From positions 338,530-359,340 of the forward strand of contig MU646734.1 in assembly GCA_026770585.1 (NCBI GenBank): 20,811 nt of DNA. Reading direction: 5' to 3'. This stretch comes from Baffinella frigidus (lineage: Eukaryota > Cryptophyceae > Cryptomonadales > Baffinellaceae). Under the pieces are notes generated by a model, which saw only the letters and a list, made by a program, of their open reading frames with translations, was not told the DNA's origin and did no database searches. Positions 1,754 through 20,691 of this stretch are shown piece by piece. Numbering within the stretch: the first letter of the stretch is position 1; every line of letters starts with the position of its first letter. Made by a program: the position numbers and the translations under genes.

Positions 1754-2508
1754 CTCTCTCTCTCTCGCAGAGCGCACCGGCAGACCACGTGACGATCCCG
1801 TGCGGGCACTTCTTCTGCCGCACCGAACCCTGCGTCGACAAGTCCCGCGGCAGGTTGCGAGCCTCACCCTAAAAATCGTCAGGTTGCGAGCCTCACCCTA
1901 AAAATCGTCAGGTTGCGAGCCTCACCCTAAAAACCTAAACCCTGAACCCTAAACCCTAAAAACTAACAACTAAACACTAAACCCGAAACCCGAAACCCGA
2001 AACCCGGAACCCGAAACCCGAAACCCTAAACCCTGAACCCTGATTCCTGAACACTACCCCCCCCCCCCGTACCTACATTCCACGGTGGACCTACCACAAC
2101 CCGGCCATCCGACAGATGTGAGGTTTCCTGGCATAGATGGCGGGGGTGTTGGTAGCAACCAAGTAGTCTCTCTGCCTCGCTCTCTCGCTCGCTGGGCAGA
2201 TGGGAGAAGGAGTGCTGCGTTGCTAGCATTACACCTCGCTCTCATATCGAGCAGGATCATAACCTTGTAAAGTTGATAACTTGACCACTTTCGTGTGGGA
2301 GTTGACTTAAGAAAGGAACTCTCGCGCTGGGCAGATGGGAGAAGGAGTGCTGTTGGAAGCAATCAGGTACTCTGCCTGACTCACTCTCTCGCGCGGCAGG
2401 TGGGAGAAGGAGTGCTGCGTCTGCTTCCAGAAGATCACCGGCTTCATGAAGGTCGTGTCCGTAACCTGTCTTCCTGCCTACCCTCACAACCTGTGTCCTA
2501 CTTTCTGA
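717..2508 (+). CDS. RING-finger protein, three exons (3' part of gene)
   Basis: Three exons join in phase: about 717-798, 1771-1853 and 2400-2508. Together they give one C3HC4 RING domain with spacing C-x2-C-x11-C-x-H-x2-C-x4-C-x11-C-x2-C. Exon 1 carries the first pair (CRIC) after a Lys-rich stretch, exon 2 carries IPCGHFFC and the sixth Cys, and exon 3 carries CCVC. Phases agree: exon 1 ends in phase 0, exon 2 in phase 2 (AG), and exon 3 supplies the third base of an Arg codon. RING domains usually act as E3 ubiquitin ligases, so a ligase role is family knowledge. The x4 gap between Cys 5 and 6 is longer than usual. The frame runs on to TGA at 2506-2508, but GT at 2450 could be another donor, so the C terminus is uncertain. 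The N-terminal exons are not seen. The donor of exon 1 (GTCC) is weak. CT tracts precede the acceptors of exons 2 and 3. Confidence 0.72.
1000..1140. mobile_element. Palindromic MITE with a perfect 18-bp hairpin (family G), copy 1
   Basis: Positions 1043-1060 and 1064-1081 are perfect complements around a 3-nt loop. The hairpin is flanked by TTTGTACGGG and its approximate complement. Outer sequence to about 1000 and 1135 is shared in inverted orientation with 13540-13665, which defines an element of about 120-140 bp. Confidence 0.75.
1360..1440 (+). repeat. Degenerate telomere-like CCCTAAA tract in intron 1 of the RING gene
   Basis: Irregular CCCTAA/CCCTAAA units, C-rich on the coding strand, lie between two copies of the exon 2 edge. 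Confidence 0.8.
1587..1770 (+). repeat. CT microsatellites ahead of the RING exon 2 acceptor
   Basis: Two (TC)n blocks, about 1590-1680 and 1724-1766, lie on the coding strand. They are interrupted by an exon-edge copy at 1701-1723. The second block runs into CAG at 1768-1770 and so can serve as the polypyrimidine tract. Frames through it encode only Ser-Leu or Arg-Glu repeats. Confidence 0.85.
1851..1935 (+). repeat. Three tandem 29-bp units at the RING exon 2 donor
   Basis: Units begin at 1851, 1880 and 1909. Each starts CAGGTTGCGAGCC, so the presumed donor CAG|GT is present three times in a row. Each ends with CCCTAAAAA, which merges into the telomere-like tract that follows. Confidence 0.9.
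1925..2045 (+). repeat. Telomere-like array with AAACCCG variant
   Basis: CCCTAAA units pass into a block of the variant heptamer AAACCCG and back again. The array is C-rich on the coding strand of the RING gene, inside intron 2. Confidence 0.88.
2197..2420 (+). repeat. Three copies of the 5' edge of RING exon 3
   Basis: CAG followed by (A/G)TGGGAGAAGGAGTGCTG occurs at 2197-2220, 2332-2353 and 2397-2420; only the last continues with the CCVC codons. All three keep the CAG acceptor and are preceded by short CTCGC-type pyrimidine runs. The A/G difference at the first base still gives Arg with the preceding AG. Confidence 0.88.
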
Positions 2509-2872: not shown

Positions 2873-2974
2873 TCTCAAGTGTGTCGCGCGACAGGTGTAC
2901 GGTGGGCGAAGCGAGGATAACAATGACTCCGACGCCGGATGAGCCGCAACCCCACAGCCTCGGGATCAGTCGTC

Positions 2975-3095
2975 TACAGGGGTACCTCGCTCATAAGAAA
3001 CCGCCCCCCCCCTAGGACCACCACAGGGCCCTAGGCATAGGCCTACTGTAGGGTCCTAGGGGGGGACGATTTCTTATGAGCGAAGTACCCCTGTA
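2975..3095. mobile_element. TACAGGGG palindromic MITE (family A), copy 2
   Basis: A 121-bp palindrome with the same ends and core as the copy at 2676. The right terminal repeat has one change (CGAAGTACCCC). Confidence 0.9.
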
Positions 3096-3133
3096 CGTGT
3101 AGAGTGCCCATGACCTCTCGCTAGGTCCTGCTC

Positions 3134-3341: not shown

Positions 3342-3464
3342 TACAGGGGTACCTCGCTCATAAGAACCCCCCCCCCCCTAGAGGACCCTACAGTAGGCCT
3401 ATTCCTAGGGTCCTATGGTGGTCCTAGGGGTTTGGGCGTTTCTTATGAGCGAGGTACCCCTGTA
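3342..3464. mobile_element. TACAGGGG palindromic MITE (family A), copy 3
   Basis: A 123-bp copy with the core inverted relative to copies 1 and 2 (CCTACAGTAGGCC on the left). The ends are intact. Confidence 0.9.
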
Positions 3465-3487
3465 TGCCCTCTTGCTTGGTCCTGCTC

Positions 3488-3546: not shown

Positions 3547-3565
3547 CCTCATCGATTAAGACCTC

Positions 3566-3686
3566 TAAAGGGGTACCTCGCTCATAAGAAACTGCCCCCC
3601 CCCTAGGACCACCATAAGGCCCTAGGCATAGGCCTACTGTAGGGTCCTAAGGGGAGGCAGTTTCTTATGAGCGAGGTATCCCTGTA
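3566..3686. mobile_element. TACAGGGG palindromic MITE (family A), copy 4
   Basis: A 121-bp copy. The left end is TAAAGGGG instead of TACAGGGG and the right end is ATCCCTGTA. Confidence 0.88.
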
Positions 3687-3802
3687 TTTCTAAGATGAGG
3701 CTGGGGCTGGGGCTGGGGCCTATTGACGCTTACATGTATCGACATTTCTTACAAGAGAGAAAATGCACAAGGCGCAGAGCTGAAGCGAGCTTAGGGTCCG
3801 TC

Positions 3803-4892: not shown

Positions 4893-5232
4893 ACTGCGGT
4901 AAAACACTGTCAAACCTCTTCTGTTTTGATTTTGTACCAAGAAAGTCAGAGGTGGGCCCATCCGAGGGGATTAATTTAGGGTAGCGGACGGGCGGACGGG
5001 CCCGCCTCCCACTCGCGGGCCCGGGTTGGCCCGAGGTATTGCCGAAAGCTCACGTTAGAGACCGACTTAACACCGGACGTAAGTCGAGGCTGCTTCATGG
5101 GAGAACGGGCCTAACCAAAGCCGCTTGTGCGATACAAGTTTTTTTGAACGGCTACCGTAAAACACTTTTAAACCTCTTCTGTTATTTTTTTACTGAAAGT
5201 CTGAGGCGGGCCCCGTCTGAGCGGACTAATTC
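4893..5232. repeat. Diverged direct repeat, about 80 bp, two copies
   Basis: About 4893-4976 and 5150-5232 share GTAAAACACT, AAACCTCTTCTGTT, AAAGTC(A/T)GAGG(T/C)GGGCCC and a GG(A/G)CTAATT-like end. The second copy runs directly into the hairpin element at 5232. Confidence 0.65.
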
Positions 5233-5386
5233 TAGCTCTGTCGCACTTTGAATTGGGCTCATCATCAATTCGCCCCCCCCCCAATTTCCGATGTGAATTT
5301 CCTGGGGGGGGTGCAAAATTCACATGGGAAATTCAGGGGGGGGGGCGAATTGATGATGAGCCCAAATCAAAGTGGGACAGAGCTAG
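5232..5386. mobile_element. Hairpin MITE (family D), copy 1
   Basis: Terminal inverted repeats CTAGCTCTGTC(G/C)CACTTTGA face each other, with inner arms containing TCATCAATTCGCCCCC and an inner GAATTTCC pair. A diverged second copy is at 9041-9168. Confidence 0.88.
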
Positions 5387-6793: not shown

Positions 6794-9700
6794 ATGGCCG
6801 ACGCGACCGAGGATGCCGTGGAGCTCAAGTCAGTGTCGATCGAGCCCAACGACTGCCCGCTGGGCGAGCGGATGTGCATCAAGATGGGGTTCAAGACCAA
6901 CCGGGCGGTGAACAAGGCCGTGTGGGACATGAAGGTGAGAAGACTGGAACTGAGGGCGGAAACGTTATGATGGAGGGACAGTGGCGGGCGGCAGGCACGC
7001 AAGGAGAATGAGAAAGCGCAGGAGAGAGGGGAGGGGGTAGAGAAACAGATTCAGGAGATAAAAGAGGGAGGGAGGGAGGGAGGGAACAAGCAATCATCTG
7101 TCAGTCTCGACGTTGGTTCCGGATCCCGGATTGATTGTCCGAGTGATTCGAGGCGGAGCAGGCGGCCACCAAGATGTTGAGTTGCACAGAATGTTCACGC
7201 ATGCGCCCATCCCCCCTCCCCCCCTCCCTTTCCCCCTTCACTGCATCTTGCAACGTAGGGTCGAACGCCGACCAGGCAGAGCGTGGACGCGAAACGTGAA
7301 CTCCCAGCTCCGCCTCACTCGGGTTGGCTGACTATTCCTAAGTTGACATGCTGGGTTCGCGGTGCCAATCCGTCCATTTCAACGCGGAAAAGAGCCCGGT
7401 CTCTCCAAATTGGTGCGACCGAATACACAGATAAAGCTAGAACTTGGACAGGCGATGGTGCAAGAGAGCCCCCCGACAGTTGACAGCATTGGCAGGGTGT
7501 GCACCAGGAAGGTAACTCATGCGGGCAGGTTCACTACCAGGAAATGAATTTTAACAACGGTCGTGGCGCTAGCTGACCTCAAGAGAGAGGAGACGAGGCT
7601 TAATTGAACGTATGGCGTCGGAACCATAAACTTTAAGCCTCCAGAGAGGGCTCGAAAGTGAAGGTCTCACGGCTAACGCAAAACCGCCCTGAACAGTACA
7701 TGGTGGACATGGCGTCAAAACGGAAAGTCATCCGTGAGTCACCCACCCCACCCAGATTCGGTCATCAAATTGCTCTTGTCAATAATGAAAATGCTCTTGT
7801 CGCGTCAATCAAATTGCTCTTGTCCAGTACTCACGATAATCAAATCGCGCATGTCCACTTTCGAGGCGTATGACCTCTGCCACTAGAGTTTTCCCCCCAA
7901 GACGATTTCCCCCTCTGATGCCAATCACAGAGCAATTCGCAAGAAACGCTTGCTTTCTGTGATACAACGGTAGAGCTGGCGACCCAGATTCACCATTGCT
8001 CGATCATTGCTCTTGTCCACCGACGTTCGAGACGTGGGGGATATCTGCCACTAGGGCTGGTGCATGTTTCCCCAGATGCAAGCACAGAGCTCAAGCTCTG
8101 TCTCAGCTAGGTTGGCTGACTATTCTTAAGTTGACATCCTGGGTGTGGTGTACAAATCCGTCAGCTTTGGAGCGGGAAAGAGCCTGGTCTCACCAAATTG
8201 GTGAGACCAAATAGACTGAGACTGAGCTAGAAGGTTCGCGAACCAGCCCCCCCCCTCACGACTCTGAATTCGTTTCTGTGATGCAGGGGCGGTCTCAATT
8301 TCCACACAATAATTAGTACCACGAAAATGCATGGACTGATCAATTAGTACCACGAAAATGAATGGACTGATTTAATAGTAGCACGAAAATAAATGGAGCG
8401 GTGTGGCAGAGCTGGCGACGTCGGCGGAGACATCGTATGCCGCGGGGGCGGTCTCGTCCATGGAGATTGAGAGCGCCGGCATCGACACCGCCGGCTTCAA
8501 ACCCCACCAGGTTTGCGAAATGCACCAGGTTTGCGAAATGGCTACCGCTACCGGGAAGGTGTTGCTCAAGTCGACCCGAGTCACAAAAGCTGTCAACTTC
8601 AGGATCCGAATAAACCAGATTGGCCTGTTCTTTTCAGCTTAATCTACTGAAAATTTGTGTGGGGTTTGACTTGAGCAAAAAGTTCCCGCTAGCAGTGAAA
8701 TAGGGGTTCGCGCCTGGAGGTTAGGGGTAAGGGGTAAGAGGTTAGCGGATAGCGGTTAGCGGATAGCGGTTAGCGGTTAGCGGTTAGCGGTTAGTGGTTT
8801 GCGGTTAGGTGTGAGGCTTTGAAGCCCATCAGGTTGCTGGAAACCAGAGCAGCAACCCATAAGGGGTAAGAGGTCAGCGGGTAGCGGGTAGCGGGTAGCG
8901 GTTAGCGGTTAGCGGGTAGGTGTTAGGCTTCGAAGCCCATCAGATTGCTGGAGACCAGAGCAGAGACGGGTGTGTCTCCTTTCTCGTGAGCAACCCCTGC
9001 GCTTTTGCAACCCTACGGGGGTCCTCCGCTCCTGCGAGTACTAGCTCTGTCCCACTTTGATTTGGGATGAAACAATCAATTCGCACCCCCCCTCCAGGAA
9101 ATTCACATGGGAAATGGGGGGGGGGGGCGAATTGATGATGCGCCCAAATCAAAGTGGGACAGAGCTAGGAGTAAGCCTCCCGCAGGACCGCATGGTGGGG
9201 TGTCTTCTTTCTCCTGTGCCCCGTCGAGTCCGGTTGGCGGCCTATCCTTAAGTTGACATGCTGGGTGCGTGGTACAAACCCGTCAACTTTGGCGCTGGGC
9301 AGCTGGCGAACGCGGGGCTGGTGATGCTGACGCTCTCCGACGGAGGCGAGGAGCTCCTCACCGTCAACCTCGTTACTCAGGTCCCACCAACCCTCACGCA
9401 AAGACCAAATCGTCCATTTTCAGACCTCGAAATCACCTTGCAGCGGGGTCGGATCCGACCCTGCTGCAAGGTGATTTCGAGGTCTGAAAATCGACGATTT
9501 GGTCCGCCTGTGAGGGTTGGTGGTCCCCCAACACTTATTTCGATCATTGTCTGGTACAAAAGTGCAGAATCAGACTTTTCAAAGGGCTGTAAATCCCTCC
9601 AGTGTAAATTTTGTACCGGAGCTCCTCACCGCCAACCTCGTCATTCAGGTTCACCGACTATTCTCAAGTTGACACGCTGGGTTTGCGGTAAAAATCTGTC

Positions 9701-10735
9701 AACTTTACAGCGGAAAGGAGCCCGGGCTCACCAGATTGGTGGACCCAAATAGACTGAGATAGAGGTAGGGCGAAGAGTTCCTCACCGTAAGAGACAACCT
9801 CGTCACTCAGGTACTGCCGAAATTTCTCTCTCTTGATTACTCGAGCCTTAATTAAGGTGAGTGATCCAATAGTCTATGAGCCTCGTCGTTTGACGGACCC
9901 GCCTCGGCATGCTCAACACCCTCAATGTTGACACCACCTTCAAAAGTGGACCCGCCTCAGGATATGAGAAGAGCTCCTCACCGCCAACCTCGTCACTCAG
10001 GTTGGCCGACTATTCTTAAGTTGACATGCTGGGTGTGCGGTACAAATCCGTCAGCTTCGGAGCGGGAAAGAGCCCGGGCGCACCAGATTGGTGAGCCCAG
10101 ATAGACTGAGACTGAGGTAGGGTGAAGAGCTAGGCTCGGAGAGGCTCGGGCCAGGCTGGGCCAGGCTTGGAGAGGCTCGGGCCAGGCTGGGCCAGGCTTG
10201 GAGAGGCAGGCTGGGCCAGACAGCTCCTCACCGTGAACCTCGTGGTCGCAAATCGCCAAGTTGACTACTGAAAGGATTTCATCCGGACGAGTATTTCTGA
10301 GAAATACGATTTCGGGGACCACCGATGCGATTTTGGTGTATCTTAAGGCTATATATTATGAAGTTACTGCTATGAAAGGCCAATATGAACCGCCCCTAAG
10401 CCTTAATATACACCAAAATCGTATTCCTCAGAAATACTCGCCGTGATGAGATTGGTGTTGGTGAGCAGGTGACGAAGAAGGAGCGCGACACTTTTCACTC
10501 GAGATATCCCCGGGAACATTTTGTATCAGTCAGCTCTGGAAAATCCAAGCAATATTGGAGATGTGTGGGGTAAGCAATATGGTGACTCTTTTCTAAGTTG
10601 ACGGGTTTTGTGGGGGAATCGACTTTAGAAAAATCCTCCCGCGAGCAGTGTGCTGAAAGGTTTGGTGGGGTTTGATCAGGTGACCAAGAAGGAGGGCGAC
10701 ACTTTGTACCGCACCGTCTACAGCCCCCTCGACGA

Positions 10736-10739
<4 letters not shown>
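6794..10739 (+). CDS. Conserved-looking 138-residue protein, five exons, family unknown
   Basis: Exons 6794-6934, 7697-7733, 8410-8510, 9303-9380 and 10680-10739 join in phase from ATG to TAG. Exon 1 ends MK with donor GTGAGA. Exon 2 begins YMVDMA and ends in phase 1 at GTGAGT. Exon 3 restores phase with CAG and runs to KPHQ. Exon 4 is LANAGLVMLTLSDGGEELL to VTQ. Exon 5 is VTKKEGDTLYRTV to PLDE. Alternating hydrophobic stretches (SVSIEP, LVMLTLSD, LLTVNLVTQV, LYRTVYSP) suggest a small all-beta fold with no signal peptide or membrane helix. I have a weak impression of a protein type found in flagellated protists but do not recognise the family. The coding total is 417 nt in 3.9 kb. The exon 4 donor (GTCCCA) is weak. 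Exon 4's acceptor lies within a partial introner. Nearly every exon edge is echoed in the introns. Confidence 0.78.
7018..7085. repeat. Purine-rich GGGA tract in intron 1
   Basis: GAGAGGGGAGGGGG followed by (GGGA)n. The reverse frames encode Ser/Pro/Leu repeats only. Confidence 0.7.
7323..7440 (+). mobile_element. Introner-like element E, copy 1 (118 bp)
   Basis: Begins GTTGGCTGACTATTCC and ends AAGCTAG, so its own termini are GT and AG. An internal short inverted repeat AAGTTGAC/GTCAACTT is present in the family; here the right arm is decayed. It lies in intron 1 of the five-exon gene, in the sense orientation. Confidence 0.8.
7755..8100 (+). repeat. Diverged direct repeats in intron 2
   Basis: The block TCAAATTGCTCTTGTC recurs four times between 7755 and 8020. 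A longer block with TCTGCCACTAG(A/G)G, TTTCCCC, GATGC(C)AA and CACAGAGC occurs at about 7855-7940 and 8018-8095. An echo of the exon 3 start (AGAGCTGGCGAC) is at 7975. Its preceding TTTCTGTGAT recurs at 8274 before an echo of the exon interior (GGGGCGGTCTC). Confidence 0.6.
8111..8230 (+). mobile_element. Introner-like element E, copy 2 (120 bp)
   Basis: GTTGGCTGACTATTC to GAGCTAG, GT-AG at its ends, with intact internal AAGTTGAC and a matching GTCAGCTTT arm. It is preceded by CAGCTAG. It lies in intron 2 of the five-exon gene, sense orientation. Confidence 0.88.
8307..8398 (+). repeat. Three tandem units of about 33 bp ahead of exon 3
   Basis: Units of ATTAGTACCACGAAAATG plus AATGGACTGAT, the third diverged. 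The array ends a few bases before the CAG acceptor of exon 3. Confidence 0.85.
8505..8541 (+). repeat. Tandem 18-bp duplication across the exon 3 donor
   Basis: GTTTGCGAAATGCACCAG (8511-8528) repeats the donor context, giving two consecutive CACCAG|GTTTGCG donors 18 nt apart. Use of the second would add six codons (VCEMHQ) without changing frame. Confidence 0.85.
8700..8925 (+). repeat. GGTTAGC-type heptamer array with two echoes of the exon 3 end
   Basis: Units of GGTTAGC and GGGTAGC occur in two blocks (about 8705-8810 and 8860-8925). After each comes a copy of the exon 3 end: GGCTTTGAAGCCCATCAG at 8815-8832 followed by GTTGCT, and GGCTTCGAAGCCCATCAG at 8926-8943 followed by ATTGCT. The heptamer is probably a drifted telomere unit, here G-rich on the coding strand. 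Confidence 0.8.
9041..9168. mobile_element. Hairpin MITE (family D), copy 2
   Basis: CTAGCTCTGTCCCACTTTGA and its exact complement form the ends; inner arms contain CAATTCGC and a C/G run. It lies in intron 3 of the five-exon gene. Confidence 0.88.
9233..9302 (+). mobile_element. Introner-like element E, 5' half, supplying the exon 4 acceptor
   Basis: GTTGGCGGCCTATCCTTAAG through GTCAACTTTGG matches the left half of element E. It then runs into GGGCAG, the acceptor of exon 4. The right half of the element is missing. Confidence 0.7.
9384..9523. mobile_element. Near-perfect 140-bp palindrome (family P), copy 1
   Basis: Arms of about 70 nt start CCACCAACCCTCACG and meet at a central GGATCC. 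It follows the exon 4 end directly. Flanking TC appears on both sides rather than TA. Confidence 0.92.
9649..9768 (+). mobile_element. Introner-like element E, copy 4 (120 bp)
   Basis: GTTCACCGACTATTCTC to GAGGTAG, GT-AG at its ends. It sits exactly between two copies of the exon 4 edge: CATTCAG on the left and GGCGAAGAGTTCCTCACC on the right. Confidence 0.92.
10001..10120 (+). mobile_element. Introner-like element E, copy 5 (120 bp)
   Basis: GTTGGCCGACTATTCTTAAG to GAGGTAG, GT-AG at its ends, directly after CACTCAG of an exon 4 echo. It is followed by GGTGAAGAGC, a decayed start of another echo unit. Confidence 0.92.
10139..10222 (+). repeat. Minisatellite of about 31 bp
   Basis: GAGAGGCTCGGGCCAGGC plus TGGGCCAGGCTTG repeats about two and a half times, between an element E and the last exon 4 echo. 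Confidence 0.85.
10288..10440. mobile_element. Hairpin MITE, CGAGTATTTCTGAG ends
   Basis: Left CGAGTATTTCTGAGAAATACG and right complement, with a second shared block ATTTTGGTGTAT and TTAAGGCT. The left arm has an insertion of about 21 nt relative to the right. It lies between the last exon 4 echo and an exon 5 echo. Confidence 0.88.
10459..10500 (+). repeat. Echo of the exon 5 start
   Basis: GAGCAG followed by GTGACGAAGAAGGAG, CGCGACACTTTTCAC matches the start of the true exon 5 (10680, after GATCAG). It diverges after about 30 nt, so it is a partial exon copy with its own CAG acceptor. Confidence 0.88.
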
Positions 10740-10825: not shown

Positions 10826-10950
10826 TACATCAAGGGATGCCTCGCTCATAAGAAACTGCCCCCCCCTAGGACCCTACAGTAGGCCTATGCCTAGGGCCCT
10901 ATGGTCGTCATATGGGGGGGGGGGGTTCTTATGAGCGAGGTACCGCTGTA
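10826..10950. mobile_element. Family A palindromic MITE, copy 6
   Basis: The left end is decayed (TACATCAAGGGATGCCTCGC); the right end is CGAGGTACCGCTGTA. The core is in the CCTACAGTAGGCC orientation. It lies about 85 nt past the stop codon of the five-exon gene. Confidence 0.88.
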
Positions 10951-11124
10951 GGCTCCTAGGAATAGGCCTGCATGGTTCCGTAGGACCCTAGGGCGGTGCG
11001 TGTGATTGTTCGTTGGCGAGTGAACACCCCGTGTCTACCGTGTCTTGCAGAAGCGTGTGCGAGCGAGCGTGCGCTAACTCACTATCACGCCACGTTGCTT
11101 CTGTTCTCGAGAAACGTGCGTTTA

Positions 11125-12326: not shown

Positions 12327-12507
12327 GGTTGAGCCAGGACGACGCTGCGGGGTAAGGTCGTGAGAGGTCAGAGAGAGACGGTCCTAAACCCCTAAACCCT
12401 AAACCTTCGGCACCGAAGTGTTATTCACTGGACTGTCCTCGCCACCCTCACCTCTTGTTGAGGGCTGCTCTGCCATGGAGAGTGCACATCACCTCTCTCG
12501 TCGCCTC

Positions 12508-12634
12508 TACAGGGGTACCTCGCTCATAAGAAACCGCCGCCCCCTAGGACCCTACATGTACAGTAGAACCATGCCTAAGGTCCTATGGTGGTCCTAGGGG
12601 GGGGGCGGTTTCTTATGAGCGAGGTACCCCTGTA
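12508..12634. mobile_element. Family A palindromic MITE, copy 7
   Basis: A 127-bp copy with intact TACAGGGGTACCTCGCTCAT ends. An internal TACATGTACAGTA interrupts the core. Confidence 0.9.
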
Positions 12635-13691: not shown

Positions 13692-16600
13692 CTGTTGGCG
13701 GGCGGCCTGGAGTTCGAGGACGCGCTTGGAGTAGCCCGAGGAGAACGTCCCGACGAAGCCGTCAGACGCCCGCGAGAGCAGCACCAGGTTCACCTGCCCC
13801 CCCCCGCCCCACCTCTCGTCACCCACGTCCCTTGCTTTTCCTGCAAACCGGGACCTAGTCTATGTCCTGGTCAGACCAGGCGTCCTCGGGAGGGAGGGGG
13901 GGGCATCGTGGCAGCCTTGGTGGGCGAGATGAGCACGAGGTTCACCTGCCCGAGAGCAAAATGCGGTTATGAATCAGCGCACTTTTGGTCGTGCATAGCT
14001 GCACTGTCTTGCGGCGAAACGAGGAGTATAGCAGCACTAGGTTCACCTGTACCCTCCGCGGAGTATCATCTCAGAGAATGCATTAAATAATGCCATTTAT
14101 GCTATCGAAATTTACAGCAGCACTAGCTTCACCTGCCCGCGCCAGGTCACAAGTGTGAACTGAAGGTTGATGCTCTCTCCTTTCAAAAGGGTTTCCTGGT
14201 ACACCTGAAACATTATTGCGCATGGCAATGGCTCTAGTTGCTGACTATGCCCTCGATGCCTGACGCCCGTGACAGCAGCACTACCACCAACCCCCACGGC
14301 TTGGGCAAATCGATGATTTTCGATTTGGGATTTCAAGGGGGTTGAAGTCGGAATCCAACTTCAACGGCTCCAATTCCCCTTGAAATCGGGAAATCGAAAA
14401 TCATCGATTTGCCCCAGCCGTGAGGGTTGGTGGTATGTCCACCTGCCCGAGAGAAACGTGCGGTTCTGCATCAACGCACTGTTGGTCGTGCACAGCTGCA
14501 ATGTCTTGCGGCGAAACGAGGATTATAGCAGCACTAGGTTCACCTGTACCCTCCGCCCGAGCAGTCGTCAGCTACTTCCCGAGGCGGGCCTATCCATCCC
14601 GAGGCAGGCCTGTCCATCCCGAGGCGGGCCTATCTATTCCGAGGCGGGCATATCCCTTCGAGAGGCGCAACCTCGGAACGGCATCGTGGTGCGAGAAAGG
14701 TAGTTATCGCAAAAGTGGCTGGGTTGGCTTTTGGCTTCCGAGGCACGGACGCTAGCGTGGTTTGATTTTGCTGAAACGTCTAGGTCCTGGCCAAACAACG
14801 AGAGGGTGGGTTCTCTGTGCTCACCAGCGAGATGCGGTTCTCCTCGGCGGCCGAGAGCAGCCCCAACCGAATCGCCTGTAGTGCTCGAGGCCCAGGGTTT
14901 ATGGTTTCGGGTTTCGGGTTTAGGAATTGAGAATTAGGAGCAGCCCCAGCCGGATCGCCTGCAGTGACAGGGTTTCGGGTTTGGAGGTTAGGAATTAGGA
15001 AATAGGAATGCGGCTTGAGGAAGAAGGAAGTAGGAGCAGGCCGAAGTTGATCGCCTGTGGGGTTCAGGATTCAGGGTTAAAACCCGAATGCCTAGGAGCC
15101 CTACGGTCTACTGTAGCCAATAGGCTCGACGGGTTTGAGGTTTGGGGTTTTAGGTTTGGGGTTGAGGGTTGAGGGTTGAGGGTTTAGGTTTTAGGGTTTG
15201 AGCTCAACGGGTTTGGGGTTTGGGGGTTGAGGTTTGAGGTTTAGTGTTTAGTGTTTAGGGTTTAGGGTTTAGGGTTTAGGGTTTGGGGTTGAGGGGTTAA
15301 GATTTAGTGTTCGCGGTTTGTCTTTGAGGGGTTGGGATTGATGGTTTAGGGTTTGGGGTATAGGGGTTAGGATTTAGGTTTCACAGGTTAGGGGTTAGGG
15401 GACAGGCCTGGGGGATGGAGATGCGTAGTGAAGCGCGAGGGTGGGTTGTCCAGTAGAATCGCAGCCTCTGTCCTCGCGCTTCCCGCACCGCCACGCCCCT
15501 GCACTCAAACACATACTTTTAACTTCGGACACGAATCAAAAAGTTAGTTTCTGGCAGCGAAAATTACTACAGGATTGGGCCATACTAGTAATGATAACTC
15601 ATTTTTTTAGGGATTTGGAGTGATGCGGAGGGACGCGCGAGGGTGGGTGGTCCAGTAGAAGCTTGGCCCCTACCCCCACGCCTCCCGTACCGCCGCGCCC
15701 CTGCAAGAGATAGACTTTGGTACTAGCAATACGGCCGGCATTGTATGCACCCCCACCGAGGCTATGTCTGGCAGAACGCGTTACCGGTACCAACATATGA
15801 GTCAAACACCGTGTACTACGGGCTTGCAAGCCGGCAGTAGTGTGAGGTTGTAGCTCTGCCGCAGTCGAGTTGACGCACTATTCTCAAGTTGACATGCTGG
15901 GGGTGTAGTACAAATCCGTCAACTTTGGAGCGAAAAAGAGCCCGGGCCCAACAAATTGGTGAGACCAAATAGACAGAGGAAGAGGTGGTGGTCGCGCGCA
16001 CCATTCAGCAGGGTCGACGCCGGCGGGTGTCTCTGGCGCAGCGTCGCCTCCCTCTCGCGCGGCGTTGAGTGCCGCGAGGAGATCGATCGTCGCCTGGTCT
16101 TCGGTGGCGACCAGCACGGCCCGCTCCCCCCCAGCAATGCGCCCTTCGCCCGCCCCGGCTTCCGCACACCGCGCCAGCATTTCGATGTACTCCCCCAATG
16201 CCCTGATGCGGAATCAGCTTCAGGTTTTTGTGCTATCTTAAGGATGAAATTTGCTATGTTAGCCTCTGTACAGCTTGAAGAAAGCACATAACACACCCGT
16301 AAGATCCCGCATCCCCCACTACCTCCGCACACCGCGCAGGCATCTCGATATACTCCCCCAACGGCTTTTGCCTTAGCCAGGTTGGCGGACTATTGTCAAG
16401 TTGATGGTTCTGGGTGCGTGGTACAAATCCGTCAACTTTGGGGCGAAAAAGAGCCGCCTCCGCGCACCGCGGCATCCACGCCAGGCTCTTGGGTAGGGTA
16501 TTCCATGTGCGTTCTTGGAGCCGTTTGTGCGTTCTTGGAGCCGTTTTAATCTTAAAATTGACTTTTCAACACCGTTTTCCCTTGAAAAATGACTTTTGAA

Positions 16601-18746
16601 TACCCCCCCCTCCAGCCCTGCGTGGCTCGATATACTCCCCGAGAGGTCTGCCCGGGTTGGTGGACTGGAGTCAAGTTGACTATTCTGAGCACGGCTCGCA
16701 CCAAGAGAAGCGAGGATCAGTCAACCGTCGTGTCGGAGGCTCATAACCTTGGGGTGGTCTCGACCCTAAACCCTAAAACCTCAACCCTCAAGCCAGACCT
16801 GGGGGCGGTCTCGACCCACTTGTGTCCTCTCCGGATGTGTGCGCCCAGGTACTCCCGCGGGAGCCCCATCTGTTTCAGGCTTGAGGGTTCAGGGTTGAGG
16901 CTTTAGGGTTTGGGGTTTAGGATTTGGGTTTGGGGGTTTAGAGGTGAGGGTTCAGGGTTTAGGGTTTAGTGCTTAAGGTTTAGGGTTTGGGGTTTAGGGT
17001 TTAGGGCTTAGGGTTCAGAGTTTAGGGTTTAAGGTTTAGGGTTTAGGGTTTAGGGTTTAGGGTTCAGGGTTTAGGGTTTAGGGTTTAGGATTTAGATGAA
17101 GGGGTTAGGGGGCAGGTACCTGCTGGGCCTCCGCGGCGAAGAGGGTCGCGGGGGGGGCGCAGCGCCAGATCACAGTACCACACAGCGGGCTTCCAAGGGA
17201 TTTTCGGCCCATTTCGGGCCGAATTTCCGTTACCTTATCCGTAGGAACCCCCCTAAGCCCCTACGGGTTGTCTACCGTAGGGTGGGTACCGTAGGTCTGA
17301 TCGTATAAGGGTTATTCAAAATCCCTTCGAACTCCGCTGTGTGGTTGTGGCATGCTCGTGTGGGTTGTTGCCATCTTGGGCATAAAATCCATGCCTTACA
17401 TGGCATAAAAGTGGTCCGGATTTAGTGATATTGATAGATGAACGCAGGGCGTTCATACTTACCTGTTCAGCTTCAGGTTTTTGTGCTATCTTCAGCATGA
17501 AATTTGGAATCGGGCTTCCGCGGCGATTCCAGGGTTGACAGTTGAGTAGCAGCGTCGTGAACCGTTGGGCGTCTTTGGGAGTGGCCTCTACCTGGAGGGC
17601 TTCCGCGGCGACGAGCGCTTCGAGTGTCGCAGAGGGGCGCAGCGCCTGCTCCCCCCGGGACAACAGGTTGTGAGGATCCAACGTGGACATCAGGTTGTGA
17701 GGCCCCATCCAAATAACAGGTTTCGAGCCTGCGCCACTCGACCCGCACACAGGTTATTGCGCTCCTCGTTGCTGCGTTGAGGCTGGCAATGGGAAACGCC
17801 TAGCCTCCAAATGGCTGCAACAAACGCAGCAGCACTTGACAACGCAGCACTTTGGAGTTGAGGCGTTCCCTGTTGGCAGCCTGAAAGCAGCGATCGCGCA
17901 GGGTCGGGGGGGGCAGAGAGGTGACAGCGATCCAGCGGAGCTGTTGACTAATCCGCGCTGGTTTTGTACCAGGACGGTAACTAAACCGGGGAGGATTAGT
18001 ACCAGCGAAGCCTGGGATTCGTGAACCGTCGCGGGTCGAGACCAGAGAGGCGATGCCATCTACCGGTTTCACGCGTTTAGGGTCGTAGGGTTTGAGAGTT
18101 GCAGGGTTGTAGGGTTCTGGGGTTGTTGGGTTGTGAGGTGGTAGGGTTGTAGGGTTGTAGGGCTGTAGTGTTTTACAGTTGAAGGGCTGTAGGGATGTAG
18201 GGATGTAGGGCTGTAGGGTTGGTGTGTGTTAGGAGTGAGGGAGACCAGAGAGGCGAGGGCAGCGATCCAGCGGAGCAGCGCTCCCGCCACGGGCACCTGC
18301 CGGGACCGAGGCCATCGTCAGCACACATAGTGCGGGGTTGTCTCACCAGCCTCAGGAGACACGCCGGCACCTCCCAGTTGCCGCAGCGTGTGCGCACATC
18401 ACACGCCTCTTGCATACCTGACTCGACTGCCGGGCACAGTCGAGTTAGGGTTGGGGGCTCGGGTCCACAGACACACAGGGCACGGGGCAGAGAGAAGCGC
18501 GCTCAGCTTGTGTACCAGGACCAAATTTGAGGTCACGTCCGAAATAAAAATACGAATTTAAAAGGACGTAGACCTGTTGGTATCCGGGTGCGGATCACGT
18601 TTGCTAGTACTGACCGTGTCCGGTTTAGTCATGGCTAAGCTGGGCACGGTCAGTACCAGGAAACGCTGGCATTTGTCAGCGGTCCCGCCACGGGCTGCAG
18701 AGAGACAGAGAAAGAGAGAGAGACAGACAGACAGACAGACAGCGAC

Positions 18747-18803
<57 letters not shown>

Positions 18804-20392
18804 CGCCCAGCTCCGGGGGGGCGGTGAGCGGGCGTGGGAGGCGTGTGAGGCGACACACCCAGAGGCCTCTGTGTGGTCATTGCTGCCGAGCGGGCAACTG
18901 GAGAGGCCATGGTTTGGGGTACTGCAGAGATGCACGGAGGCGACGGTGAGGGGGTGTCTTGACAAAATGGTGAGGGGTTGTCTTGACAGGCTGAGGAGAC
19001 GCAGAGAGGCGCACTCAACCCCCTCCTCCTCAAACCCTAAACCCTAACCCCAGATGTAGAGACTGTGCACCTGATCGGCGTTCCCTTACCCTGACCCCTG
19101 ACCCCTAAACCCTAAACCCTCACCCCCTCAATCGCAAACCCTAAACCCTAAACCCAAAGCCAGCGCACCTGGTCAGCGCTCTCTGGGGGGTCGGCACCCA
19201 GCCAGCCCTGGGTTTAGGGTTAGAGGTTTAGGGCTTAGGGTTTAGGGTTTAGGGTTTAGGGTTCAGGGGTTAGGGGTGAGGGGTTAGGGGTGAGTGGTGC
19301 GTGGTTAGGGTTTAGAGGTTAGGGGTAATGGGCTAGGGGTTTAGGGTTTAGGGTTTAGGGTTTAGGGTTTAGGGTTTAGGGTTTAGGGTTTAGGGTTTAG
19401 AGTTTATGGTTCAGGGGTTAGGTTTCAGGGGTTATGGTTTAGCGGGGTTTGCCTGGGCGGGGACGAGGGATCGGAAGAAGGGGAGCGCTGTGTCGTCCTC
19501 CACCACTACCACCCTCTCTTCCTGCATCACCGTTTAGGGTTTAGGGTTGAGGGGGGGTTTAGGGTTTAGGGGGTAGGGTTTAGGGTTTAGGGGGGGGTTA
19601 GGGTTCGTAATTGAGGGGTGAGGGTGTAGGGTTGAGGGTTTATAGTTTGGGGTCAGGGGTTGGGGTCTAGGGTTTTGGGGTCAGGGTTTAGGGTTTAGGG
19701 TTTTAGGTTTAGGGTCTAGGGTTCAGGGTTTAGGGTTTAGGGTTTAGAGTTTAGGGTTTAGGGTTTCGGGGTTCAAACCTGTTCAAGGTTGTCGGCGAGC
19801 GGGGGCGTGGGCTCGGCGAGCGAAACATCCGAAGCTGGCTATGCCTAAGTTGACATGCTGGGTGTGCGGTCCAAATCCTTCATCTTTGGCGCGGGAAACA
19901 GCCCGGGCTCACAAAAACGAGGGTCCCAAGTCGACCGTTTGGGGTTTCGGGTTTCGGACCTGCTCGAGGTTATCAGCGAGCGGGGGCGTGGGCTCGGCGG
20001 GTGAGATGTCGGAAACCGAGCATGAGGAGAGCGGTTGGAAGTAGGTTGGGAAGAAGCCCCCCTCGCAGCCACCACCCTGCCAGCGTTTGGGGGTTGGGGT
20101 ATGGGGTTTGGGGTGTGGGGTTTGAGGTTTGGGGTGTGGGGTGTATGGTGTATGGTGTATGGTGTATGGTGTAGGGTGTAGGGTGTCTGGTGTCTGGTGT
20201 ATGGTGTATGGTGTATGGTGTAGGGTGTCTGGTGTATGGTGTATGGTGTAGGGTGTAGGGTGTAGGGTGTAGGGTTTAGGGTAGGAGAGCGGCATACCGT
20301 CGAGGAGCAGGAATCGGAGAAAGGCCAGGGGGAGGCGTGGTCGATGACGAGCGTTCGCCCCGAGAGGAACGCTGCCGAGAGCGCCACCGAGA
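13692..20392 (-). CDS. GT23/FUT8-like fucosyltransferase, at least 12 exons, 5' end outside window
   Basis: Minus-strand exons in order: A 20298-20392, B 19960-20076, C 19453-19521, D 19169-19207, E 18347-18426, F 18246-18296, G 17592-17645, H 16799-16869, I 16002-16202, J 15408-15498, K 14825-14875, L 13692-13793. About 340 codons are recovered. A has SGRTLVIDHASPWPF, B has FFPTYFQPLSSC, H has YLGAHIRRGHKWVE (the FUT8-type G-x-H-x-R-R motif), I has YIEMLARC and AVLVATEDQATIDLL, and L has SDGFVGTFSSGYSKRVLEL (the TFSS motif). Motif order matches FUT8-like GT-B fucosyltransferases that transfer fucose from GDP-fucose. Phases agree across all joins except D to E, where one short exon is probably missed. 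C, J and L seem to use GC donors (CAG|GC). The last exon may be followed by others or read on to a stop at 13599. Function is inferred from motifs only. Confidence 0.8.
13928..14543 (-). repeat. Six partial copies of the 5' edge of fucosyltransferase exon L
   Basis: CAG|GTGAACCT(A/G)GTGCTGCT on the minus strand occurs at 13948-13928, 14049-14031, 14135-14116, 14282-14272 (edge only), 14445-14438 (acceptor and 5 nt) and 14546-14528. The true exon begins at 13793. Most copies break off within 16-20 nt of the acceptor and are separated by unrelated inserts. Confidence 0.9.
13942..14558. repeat. Direct repeat of about 115 bp, two copies
   Basis: 13942-14056 and 14440-14558 share CACCTGCCCGAGAG, TGCGGTT, TTGGTCGTGCA(T/C)AGCTGCA, TGTCTTGCGGCGAAACGAGG and AGCAGCACTAGGTTCACC. 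Both begin and end with an exon L echo, so the duplicated unit is an insert plus exon edge. Confidence 0.88.
14284..14433. mobile_element. Near-palindromic MITE (family P), copy 2
   Basis: CCACCAACCCCCACGGC and the complement at the ends, AAATCGATGATTTTCGATTT inner arms, then CCTTGAAATC/GATTTCAAGG. It has TA on both sides (14282-14283, 14434-14435). It splits an exon L echo. Confidence 0.9.
14576..14660. repeat. Tandem CCCGAGGCGGGCCTATCCAT minisatellite
   Basis: Four units of about 24 bp with small changes. Confidence 0.9.
14938..15054 (-). repeat. Two echoes of the 5' edge of exon K
   Basis: CAG|GCGATCCGGCTGGGGCTGCTC at 14961-14938 and a decayed CAG|GCGATCAACTTCGGCCTGCTC at 15057-15034 on the minus strand. 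The true exon edge is at 14878-14875. Heptamer-like tracts separate them. Confidence 0.85.
15065..15405 (-). repeat. Degenerate telomere-like array in the J-K intron
   Basis: TTTAGGG, TTGAGGG and TTTGGGG units on plus, C-rich on the coding strand. The array begins a few bases after the presumed GC donor of exon J. Confidence 0.88.
15550..15610. mobile_element. Family F fragment
   Basis: GTTTCTGGCAGCGAAAATTACTAC, ATTGGGCCATACTAGTAAT matches the reverse complement of about 20465-20505. It lies between the two copies of exon J. Confidence 0.65.
15618..15700 (-). pseudogene. Decayed full-length copy of exon J
   Basis: CAG at 15703-15701 is followed by a sequence parallel to exon J (GGCGCGGCGGTACGGGAGGC, later TTCTACTGGACCACCCACC). 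In the required frame it has TAG after AVREAWG. It is the longest exon echo here and shows what happens to an unused copy. Confidence 0.75.
15869..15988 (+). mobile_element. Element E, copy 6, antisense to its host gene
   Basis: GTTGACGCACTATTCTCAAG to AGGAAGAGGTGG is a full-length-like copy with altered ends. It lies in the I-J intron of the minus-strand gene, about a dozen bases past the exon I donor (GTGCGC at 16001). Confidence 0.82.
16321..16642 (-). repeat. Three echoes of the 5' part of exon I
   Basis: TTGGGGGAGTATATCGAGATG plus GCGCGGTGTGCGGAGG at 16362-16321; a GCCGCGGTGCGCGGAGGC piece at 16478-16455; and GGGGAGTATATCGAGCC at 16642-16626, all on the minus strand. The true exon edge is at 16202. 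Confidence 0.85.
16381..16456 (+). mobile_element. Element E, copy 7, truncated, antisense to host gene
   Basis: GTTGGCGGACTATTGTCAAG through GTCAACTTTGGGGCG; the right third is missing. It is placed between two exon I echoes. Confidence 0.82.
16748..16764 (-). repeat. Echo of the 3' edge of exon H
   Basis: GTCGAGACCACCCCAAG|GTTATG on the minus strand parallels the exon end GTCGAGACCGCCCCCAG|GTCTGG at 16816-16799, donor included. Confidence 0.8.
16882..17092 (-). repeat. Telomere-like array beside exon H
   Basis: TTTAGGG units with TTCAGGG, TTTGGGG and TTAAGG variants, C-rich on the coding strand. It lies 10 nt upstream of the exon H acceptor. Confidence 0.92.
17127..17530 (-). repeat. Two echoes of exon G
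   Basis: GCGCTGCGCCCC, GCGACCCTC, GCCGCGGAGGCCCAGCAG|GTACC on the minus strand at about 17165-17127, and a short ATCGCCGCGGAAGCCC at 17528-17513. The first copy keeps the CAG|GTA donor; it differs from the exon by indels and is frameshifted. Confidence 0.82.
17178..17344. mobile_element. Hairpin MITE (family L)
   Basis: CCACACAGCGG, AAGGGATTTT and the complement at the ends (about 27 nt). The interior has a CCTACGG/CCGTAGG palindromic core reminiscent of families A-C. Confidence 0.88.
17914..18055 (-). repeat. Two echoes of exon F
   Basis: CTCCGCTGGATCGCTGTCACC, TCTCTG at 17940-17914 and GCATCGCCTCTCTG|GTCTCG at 18055-18043 on the minus strand. The true exon is 18246-18296 and ends CTCTCTG|GTCTCC. 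Confidence 0.85.
18075..18232 (-). repeat. GGGTTGTA-type octamer array
   Basis: Units of GTAGGGTT, GTAGGGCT and GTAGGGAT with an 8-nt period, a variant of the heptamer arrays nearby. Confidence 0.88.
18598..18665. mobile_element. Short hairpin element (68 bp)
   Basis: CGTTTGCTAGTACTGACCGTG and the approximate complement CACGGTCAGTACCAGGAAACG around a short loop with TTTAGTC and ATGGCTAAG. Confidence 0.88.
18670..19005 (-). repeat. Echoes of exon E and F edges
   Basis: CTGCAG|CCCGTGGCGGGACCGCTG at about 18700-18680 parallels the exon F start. CTCCTCAGCCTGTCAAGACAA at about 18998-18975 parallels the exon E end plus donor, CTCCTGAGGCTG|GTGAGACAA, and a shorter TTTTGTCAAGACACCCC lies beside it. 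Confidence 0.65.
18707..18800. repeat. GA/CA microsatellite
   Basis: (GA)n with a (GACA)n block, CT-rich on the coding strand and leading to CTGCAG in front of an exon F echo. Its frames give only Arg-Glu or Ser-Leu repeats. Confidence 0.9.
19027..19160 (+). repeat. Telomere-like tract in opposite orientation
   Basis: CCCTAAA and CCCTGACC units are C-rich on plus, hence G-rich on the coding strand of the host gene. It flanks an exon D echo at 19071-19083. It is the main exception to the orientation seen in this gene. Confidence 0.85.
19208..19440 (-). repeat. Telomere-like array forming most of the C-D intron
   Basis: Nearly continuous TTTAGGG units on plus. On the coding strand it ends CCCTAAACCCAG, which is the acceptor of exon D at 19207. 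Confidence 0.92.
19533..19775 (-). repeat. Telomere-like array in the B-C intron
   Basis: TTTAGGG units with many variants, C-rich on the coding strand. It starts about 10 nt from the exon C acceptor and ends against the exon B echo. Confidence 0.92.
19779..19827 (-). repeat. Echo of the 3' edge of exon B
   Basis: About 49 nt matching GCCGAGCCCACGCCCCCGCT, CGCCGACAACCTTGAACAG|GTTTG on the minus strand. It would encode LAEPTPPLADNLEQ like the real exon, donor included. Confidence 0.92.
19834..19925 (+). mobile_element. Element E, copy 8, antisense to host gene
   Basis: GCTGGCTATGCCTAAGTTG through GCCCGGGCTCAC; the two ends are eroded. It lies between the exon B echo and exon B itself. Confidence 0.85.
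20090..20280 (-). repeat. GGTGTAT heptamer minisatellite
   Basis: A strict 7-nt period of GGTGTAT, GGTGTAG and GGTGTCT. The minus frame translates to a Thr/Pro/Tyr/His repeat that is not a protein. It looks like a telomere heptamer that drifted and re-amplified locally. Confidence 0.93.
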
Positions 20393-20510: not shown

Positions 20511-20691
20511 TGACAGGGGGGAGGCGTGTTCAATGACGAGCGTTCGGCCCGAGAGGAAAGTTGCCGAGAGCGCCGCCGAGACTGCGTCCGCCCACATCTT
20601 TCATTTACTAGTAAACGGGATCCGGGCCCTAGTTAAATTTAGGTGGGGCCCTAATTTAAGATCATCCACCACCAGAGCGCCAGCGAGGCTG
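20511..20691 (-). repeat. Two echoes of exon A
   Basis: 20584-20511: CAG|TCTCGGCGGCGCTC, CTCTCGGGCCGAACGCTCG, CACGCCTCCCCCC, covering over 70 nt of the exon. 20691-20672: CAG|CCTCGCTGGCGCTCTGG, only the acceptor edge. The true exon begins at 20392. Confidence 0.9.

Follow-up and report, generated by a model that had tools for sequence, protein, structure and literature searches.

In the neointrons of Daphnia pulex the adjacent exon end is directly repeated over 4–12 bases, a pattern ascribed to repeated staggered breaks (PMC4202315), and many taxa have direct repeats of 4–30 bases (11.4 on average, tabulated as one pair for each intron) at their intron borders or close by (PMC11782384), with repeats of 3–5 bases overlapping the borders of Amoebophrya introns (PMC7789003). 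Introners carry or co-opt splice sites and leave duplications of 3–9 bases where such duplications are present, which is not in every family (PMC9860276), while in mouse and human cells tandem duplications arise at induced breaks through filled-in overhangs of ~43–50 bases (PMC8355091). Evaluating 20,811 nucleotides of nuclear DNA from the cryptophyte alga Baffinella frigidus (contig MU646734.1, positions 338,530 to 359,340; hereafter the window), we describe longer, serial copies of exon edges inside the adjoining introns, which we term echoes.

As in Daphnia, the adjacent exon end is directly repeated in the intron, with inserts and with what would be repeated bouts of staggered breakage; unlike the 4–12 base repeats of newly gained Daphnia introns (PMC4202315), the Baffinella repeats span ~18–85 bases and number up to four or five per edge, and intron 4 of the gene studied here, at least, looks older than its echoes. 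They also differ from the general class of intron-border repeats (PMC11782384) in being longer, far above shuffled expectation and serial. With the duplications at induced breaks (PMC8355091) they would share overhang fill-in, but the copies are adjacent there and are spaced by filler in Baffinella, and with introners (PMC9860276) they share mobile DNA within introns beside AG|GT, here an element (E) that does not define the introns. A literature search covering few subscription journals turned up no cryptophyte case of serial exon-edge copies. None of Cryptophy-, cryptist-, Guillardia or Baffinella occurs in the main text of the introner paper (PMC9860276), and that of the Baffinella genome paper (PMC9756366) does not contain the word intron. 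The observation is real, recurrent and unusually strong. Processes of this kind are known; the scale seen here and the anchoring at exon edges are new as far as our literature search shows.

Echoes of exon edges in the adjoining introns

With exons set by orthologues and the gene model, the window holds five exons of a plus-strand gene (gene 1) and eleven of a minus-strand gene matching the protein P0008 (the P0008 gene), giving 14 complete introns and 28 edges. Exon 4 of gene 1 (9303–9380) is the source of the echoes in intron 4; its real border, 9342–9380, is followed by GT, and its plus-strand echoes lie at 9618–9650 (91% over 33 bases, CAG|GT kept), 9769–9812 (80% over 44, with a 6-base in-frame insertion), 9968–10002 (91% over 35, CAG|GT kept) and 10222–10243 (95% over 22, matching 9352–9373), the last broken upstream by a tandem repeat of 31- and 21-base periods (10132–10219). 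The preliminary description had counted five border copies in this intron; the copies are real but amount to four echoes plus the exon edge itself. They exceed shuffled expectation, the exon 4 edge reaching a best score of 51 in intron 4 against a maximum of 20 in the other 13 introns, with none of 200 dinucleotide shuffles reaching 51. The start of exon 5 is likewise echoed (GAGCAG|GTGACG..., 10462–10494, 91% to 10673–10705, p 0.005), and both edges stand far above shuffles and above the other 13 introns.

The inserts between these copies differ. Two 5'-truncated plus-strand copies of E, at 9649–9768 and 10001–10120, follow echoes, their E matches running from 9641 and 9993, each at E position 12 and, for the first, within bases shared with the border. 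The proposal that full-length E follows two border copies thus survives as to place and fails as to length, since the first 11 to 19 bases are missing, and the next border copy does begin after the first E copy, with GGCGAAGAG present at 9769–9777. A 140-base palindrome resembling a miniature inverted-repeat transposable element (MITE) occupies 9384–9523 (plus strand; arms 9384–9453 and 9454–9523, 90% complementary), with similar ends at 14284–14321 and 14396–14433; credited earlier to a border copy, it in fact follows the real border and begins three bases on, with GTC between. It is confirmed that the inserts have long direct repeats of exon sequence on both sides, far above the 3–9 base duplications of introners (PMC9860276). 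Because the blocks of border plus E at 9619–9777 and 9971–10129 are 87% identical over 159 bases, both cases of border followed by E may descend from one event that was later duplicated.

Comparison with P0007, a relative encoded on a short public contig, bears on the age of intron 4. P0007 is continuous through GFKPHQLANAG at the position of Baffinella intron 3 and diverges after VNMVTQ (...VNMVTQ|VRRF) at that of intron 4, as if an intron starts at the same place there too. This departure suggests that intron 4 probably predates its echoes, which would then record growth rather than birth, and it speaks against the idea that intron 4 itself arose by border copying.

To evaluate how general the echoes are, we compared 40 bases at each edge (or the whole of a shorter exon) with the edge's own intron, with 200 dinucleotide shuffles and with the 13 other introns. 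Eleven of the 28 edges, in 9 of the 14 introns, are echoed in the intron beside them at p 0.005, the floor set by 200 shuffles, where 0.28 edges would be expected at p 0.01, and 9 of 26 edges are echoed when intron 4 is left out. All but one of the eleven outscore all 13 other introns, the exception (the start of exon 18246–18296) being equalled by the intron on the exon's other side. The remaining 17 edges have no clear echo, two among them giving p 0.015 and 0.025; weak echoes near 8816 and 8927 belong to the end of gene 1 exon 3 (p 0.015).

Within the minus-strand P0008 gene, the last exon in the window (13700–13793, known from orthologues, absent from the public model and with its low end not fixed) has its start echoed at 13945, 14046, 14132 and 14543 and partly near 14291, the edge tests having taken 13794 as its start, one base off 13793. 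Start echoes also accompany exons 14825–14875 (at 14958), 15408–15498 (15700–15616, 64 of 85 bases, with a stop codon within the echo) and 16002–16202 (at 16365 and 16647). Ends are echoed for exons 16799–16869 (at 16748), 17592–17645 (at 17120 and, in part, near 17506) and 18246–18296 (at 18043 and 17914, its start being partly echoed at 18697), and the last 54 bases of exon 19960–20076 recur at 44 of 54 positions in a copy ending at 19779, an opposite-strand E fragment (19839–19912) lying between exon and echo. Neither edge of exons 19169–19207 and 19453–19521 has an echo. A 68-base copy of exon 20298–20392 (20517–20584, 91%) lies in the upstream intron, and this repeat pair (20328/20517), upstream of the gene's first exon in the window, falls outside the 28 tested edges.

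The repeats recur in other genes. A likely exon of a RING-finger gene on the plus strand (1767–1850, limits by eye; PF13920 at 1.9e-5, below its cutoff) has its start echoed at 1444–1475, with like pieces at 1564 and 1698 by eye, and a second likely exon of this gene (2396–2454, plus strand, limits by eye) has start echoes at 2182–2217 and 2319–2352. Two further genes on other contigs (L016 and L024), picked after repeats had been seen there, show echoes at 7 of 12 edges, the end of the first L016 exon being outside the test. They belong to the HSP70 family (PF00012, 3e-44; presumably an HSP110-like member) and the TTL family (PF03133, 6e-6), and an acceptor of the former is spanned by a 29-base pair at L016:7204–7232 and 7351–7379, 100% identical and 118 bases apart.

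Shape of the repeats and the nature of element E

Exon-end echoes comprise 19–54 exon bases and reach the splice site, past whose GT similarity falls to 3–9 of 20 bases in seven of eight pairs (16 of 20 in the intron g3_I2). Exon-start echoes, 18–85 bases long, mostly start at CAG, before which similarity is 4–10 of 20 in five in-register pairs (chance ~5). GT is retained after the exon-like part in 7 of 8 in-register exon-end echoes (7 of 9 counting the fourth echo of intron 4) and CAG in 8 of 9 exon-start echoes, a set without the 18697 echo, which lacks CAG there; most copies end within a few bases past the splice site, usually after 0–8 intron bases. Telomere-like repeats swamped a scan of the junctions against random intron points, which scored about as high as real junctions, and that scan is used here for repeat extents only.

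Element E is 139 bases long with inverted ends CTAGCTCTGCC and GACAGAGCTAG (CTAG...CTAG), and is short, non-coding and present in many copies, as MITEs are. The preliminary description had taken it for a full-length intron-like insert, a view we abandon: it is a MITE, truncated in intron 4, and E ends do not define the 14 introns, whose splice sites lie elsewhere. By eye no consistent target-site duplication is seen outside CTAG, which could itself be one, and IMG/VR held no exact match to one 18-base E pattern. A partial E copy (9229–9295) is exceptional in running close to the intron 3 acceptor, and that intron may owe its end in part to E (9229–9302). A further MITE-like element (5232–5386 and 9041–9168) has ends CTAGCTCTGTC...GACAGAGCTAG that resemble those of E, and this resemblance suggests that the two share one transposase family.

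We examined 60 E copies of at least 70 bases in 39 sequences (a first look at the genome gave 3210 candidates, 40 of them scored), finding 37 intact and 23 truncated. Long flanking direct repeats accompany 9 of the 23 truncated and 3 of the 37 intact copies (p 0.006), against 31 of 3462 controls, and are distributed over 2 of 6 copies missing the 3' end only, 2 of 11 missing the 5' end only and 5 of 6 missing both. Both intron 4 copies, which are joined to the border at the common TCACTC[A/G]G, are scored here as truncated without a flanking repeat, the alignment absorbing part of it; for the copy at 9649, 0 and 5 bases separate E from the repeats. The three intact flanked copies sit within spacers and, on one side at least, do not reach the repeat ends. 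One copy at another locus (L015:4073 region), lacking its first 9 bases, lies exactly between the two units of a 17-base direct repeat that differ at one position. Because it is mainly truncated E that accompanies long direct repeats, the E data favour fragment capture over transposition with a long target duplication.

Weighing the origin of the echoes

We interpret the echoes as recurrent local duplication with insertion, most likely through repair of staggered double-strand breaks in which overhangs are filled and filler is captured, a reading that we hold with somewhat better than even confidence. Two offset nicks near an exon edge would produce a staggered break, both overhangs would be filled in while unrelated DNA is captured between them, and a segment of ~20–85 bases would end up duplicated on either side of the filler. 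If a splice site falls within the segment, a working GT or AG would remain in the outer copy, and filler and spare exon edge would be spliced out together within a longer intron. Such a duplication could be tolerated at exon edges, plausibly at no cost, because the duplicated segment brings its own splice site; in mid-exon it would ruin the gene. Repeated rounds at one edge would then give several echoes with different inserts between them. The inserts do lie between direct repeats of target sequence, E between such repeats is mostly truncated rather than intact, and the spacers are mixed, holding E fragments, palindromes and tandem repeats. Of the copying mechanisms proposed earlier, staggered-break repair fits best, and template switching has on its side the TCACTC[A/G]G common to border and E at their junction.

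The wider sequence offers a background for this reading. Within 2 kb in the window and 20 further loci, direct repeat pairs outnumber inverted ones 239 to 35 (BLAST pairs, not independent, with tandem and shared repeats masked), and the exon echoes are therefore one face of a broader local duplication habit. A set of 234 pairs falls into 122 families, with median length 42, gap 225 and identity 90%, and adjacent copies have a median gap of 151 bases (176 pairs; pairs less than 20 bases apart not taken in). Repeat ends in the 234 pairs show CAG (10 against ~3) and ACCT (4 against 0.5) at the left and CTG (11 against ~3) at the right, at offsets picked after the counts were seen, and AGGT, with 0 against 0.8, is not enriched on the right. 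Of the exon 40-mers close to an edge, 16 of 41 are copied in an adjoining intron, as are 5 of 42 lying deeper in the exon; of intron 40-mers, 95 of 662 match elsewhere in the same intron, or 37 of 498 once hand-listed echoes are removed. Because the 40-mers overlap, the Fisher values of 0.006 and 1e-7 give no more than a rough indication. The 20 loci show little codon periodicity: the interval between mismatches is divisible by 3 in 180 of 555 cases, and the best phase takes 391 of 686 mismatches, against a null mean of 373 and a null maximum of 400.

Several observations count against staggered-break repair as we have framed it. Of 13 window edges whose junction is covered by a repeat, 12 have more of it on the exon side and 1 has more on the intron side (sign test 0.003; 4 edges matching only telomere-like intron sequence, with exon parts of 0–1, set aside), and a random break across a splice site does not predict such asymmetry, which is the least explained point. 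It is countered by the g3_I2 repeat, which extends 23 bases into the intron, and by eye by intron reaches of ~19 bases at a TTL-like exon start, ~9 at an HSP70-family exon end and 26 in the RING-gene tandem unit. Differences at third codon positions number 41 of 64, slightly above the 50% expected if the exon alone were constrained (p 0.033; a tally of position and divergence that leaves out g3_I5 and the gene 1 echoes 9769–9812 and 10222–10243). Among the 23 truncated E copies only 2 have repeats within 3 bases on both sides, and for one flanked copy of the 12 (L011) a control does equally well. Part of the exon-edge excess is also ascertainment, since exon–intron pairs, with one copy under selection, stay recognisable for longer.

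Ordinary short tandem duplication (by slippage, unequal exchange or template switching) might instead have come first, with MITEs and other DNA entering the copies later, a sequence of events we regard as possible but rather unlikely. It would account for pure tandem copies at edges in the window, such as CACCAGGTTTGCGAAATG twice at 8505–8540 and a 29-base unit repeated 2.9 times at 1851–1933 that begins CAG|GTTGCG, for the bases common to border and E, and for the intact E copies lying off the repeat ends; it sits poorly with the spacing of most copies (the median gap of 151 bases) and with the linkage of repeats to truncated E. More doubtful is a splice-junction-anchored duplication, with one end at the border and the other 20–85 bases into the exon, by which introns would grow through stacking of edge copies via splicing or co-transcriptional breaks. 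Slightly less probable still, in our judgment, is copying coupled to splicing or transcription in which the junction sets one segment end (for example through R-loop breaks or splicing intermediates as template). The drop in similarity past GT and before CAG and the exon-heavy repeats speak for such coupling, but some repeats run 9–26 bases into the intron, and direct repeats are abundant in the 20 loci with little codon periodicity, so that the process is not confined to exons.

Two other proposals we consider very improbable. If E were an introner-like transposon that inserts behind AG and leaves a target-site duplication of unusual length, then E in intron 4, starting GT directly after CAG and followed by the next border copy, would be its signature; yet typical copies begin CTAGCTCTGCC and end GACAGAGCTAG, only 3 of 37 intact copies have long repeats, none of those three being abutted on both sides, and 5 of the 9 introns with echoes contain no E match. 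The flanking-repeat survey of E copies largely refutes this proposal, and the lack of E matches in those five introns leaves the earlier view that each insert is one E insertion unsupported. That echoes are kept for function, as recursive splice points (AG|GT) or as decoy splice sites in long introns, we find similarly hard to credit: GT and CAG are kept in most echoes (7 of 8 and 8 of 9), but at ~10% divergence most dinucleotides survive by chance, and the 15700 echo has a stop codon and 25% divergence. A coding function was rejected on the near absence of codon periodicity outside the window. Telomerase healing was also set aside, telomere-like repeats being common yet present in 30 of 176 spacers against 26 of 176 random segments, with no orientation rule, and intron gain by AGGT tandem duplication does not apply, as the echoes sit within introns and not at both intron ends.

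Genes, other repeats and meaning

The window runs to the end of its contig in an assembly of 382 Mb in 1364 contigs. Gene 1 encodes a conserved product of ~139 residues, relatives of which, derived from transcripts, appear in cryptophyte records under names beginning Rhodom-, Gemini- and Hemisel-, and its other plus-strand exons lie at 6794–6934 (exon 1, with a GT donor and a translation that aligns with the MMETSP/EukProt proteins P0001–P0004), 7697–7733 (exon 2), 8410–8510 (exon 3, its end CACCAG|GTTTGCGAAATG duplicated in tandem as 18 bases twice at 8505–8540) and 10680–10739 (exon 5). For its protein no Pfam family was found above cutoff and no solved relative below E 0.4, and scanning the window for known RNA families and tRNAs returned none at thresholds. 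The joined minus-strand exons match the Baffinella frigidus hypothetical protein P0008 (T484DRAFT_3000937), whose residues 50–343 were placed exon by exon from 20393 to 14783 (100% except where the match enters an intron) and whose first 49 residues fall outside the window. The C-terminus of that public model runs into an intron (14825–14783), and P0010 and P0011 indicate the exon starting at 13793 (13700–13793) as the continuation of the gene.

By eye, donors in both genes are often weak past GT (GTCCCA, GTCCGA, GTCTCC, GTCTGG), two introns resemble GC-AG, and GTRAGT-like donors are missing from the five introns whose exon-end echoes are clear, GTGAG occurring in three others. A palindromic MITE-like family (GGTACCTCGCTCATAAGAAAC...) has at least six copies in 20 kb, 74–93% alike (2673–2797, 2973–3096, 3342–3465, 3563–3687, 10832–10951 and 12505–12634), and long degenerate TTTAGGG-like arrays occupy introns at 15131–15401, 16872–17095, 19210–19442 and 19532–19770.

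The debate over how introns originate and grow longer still rests on traces that are scarce and faint. Because those in Baffinella are long, repeated and frequent, the order of events may be readable and a break-repair model testable gene by gene. The Baffinella genome, at 534.5 Mb, is ~6 times that of Guillardia theta (PMC9756366), and exon-edge duplication may help to explain its larger size.

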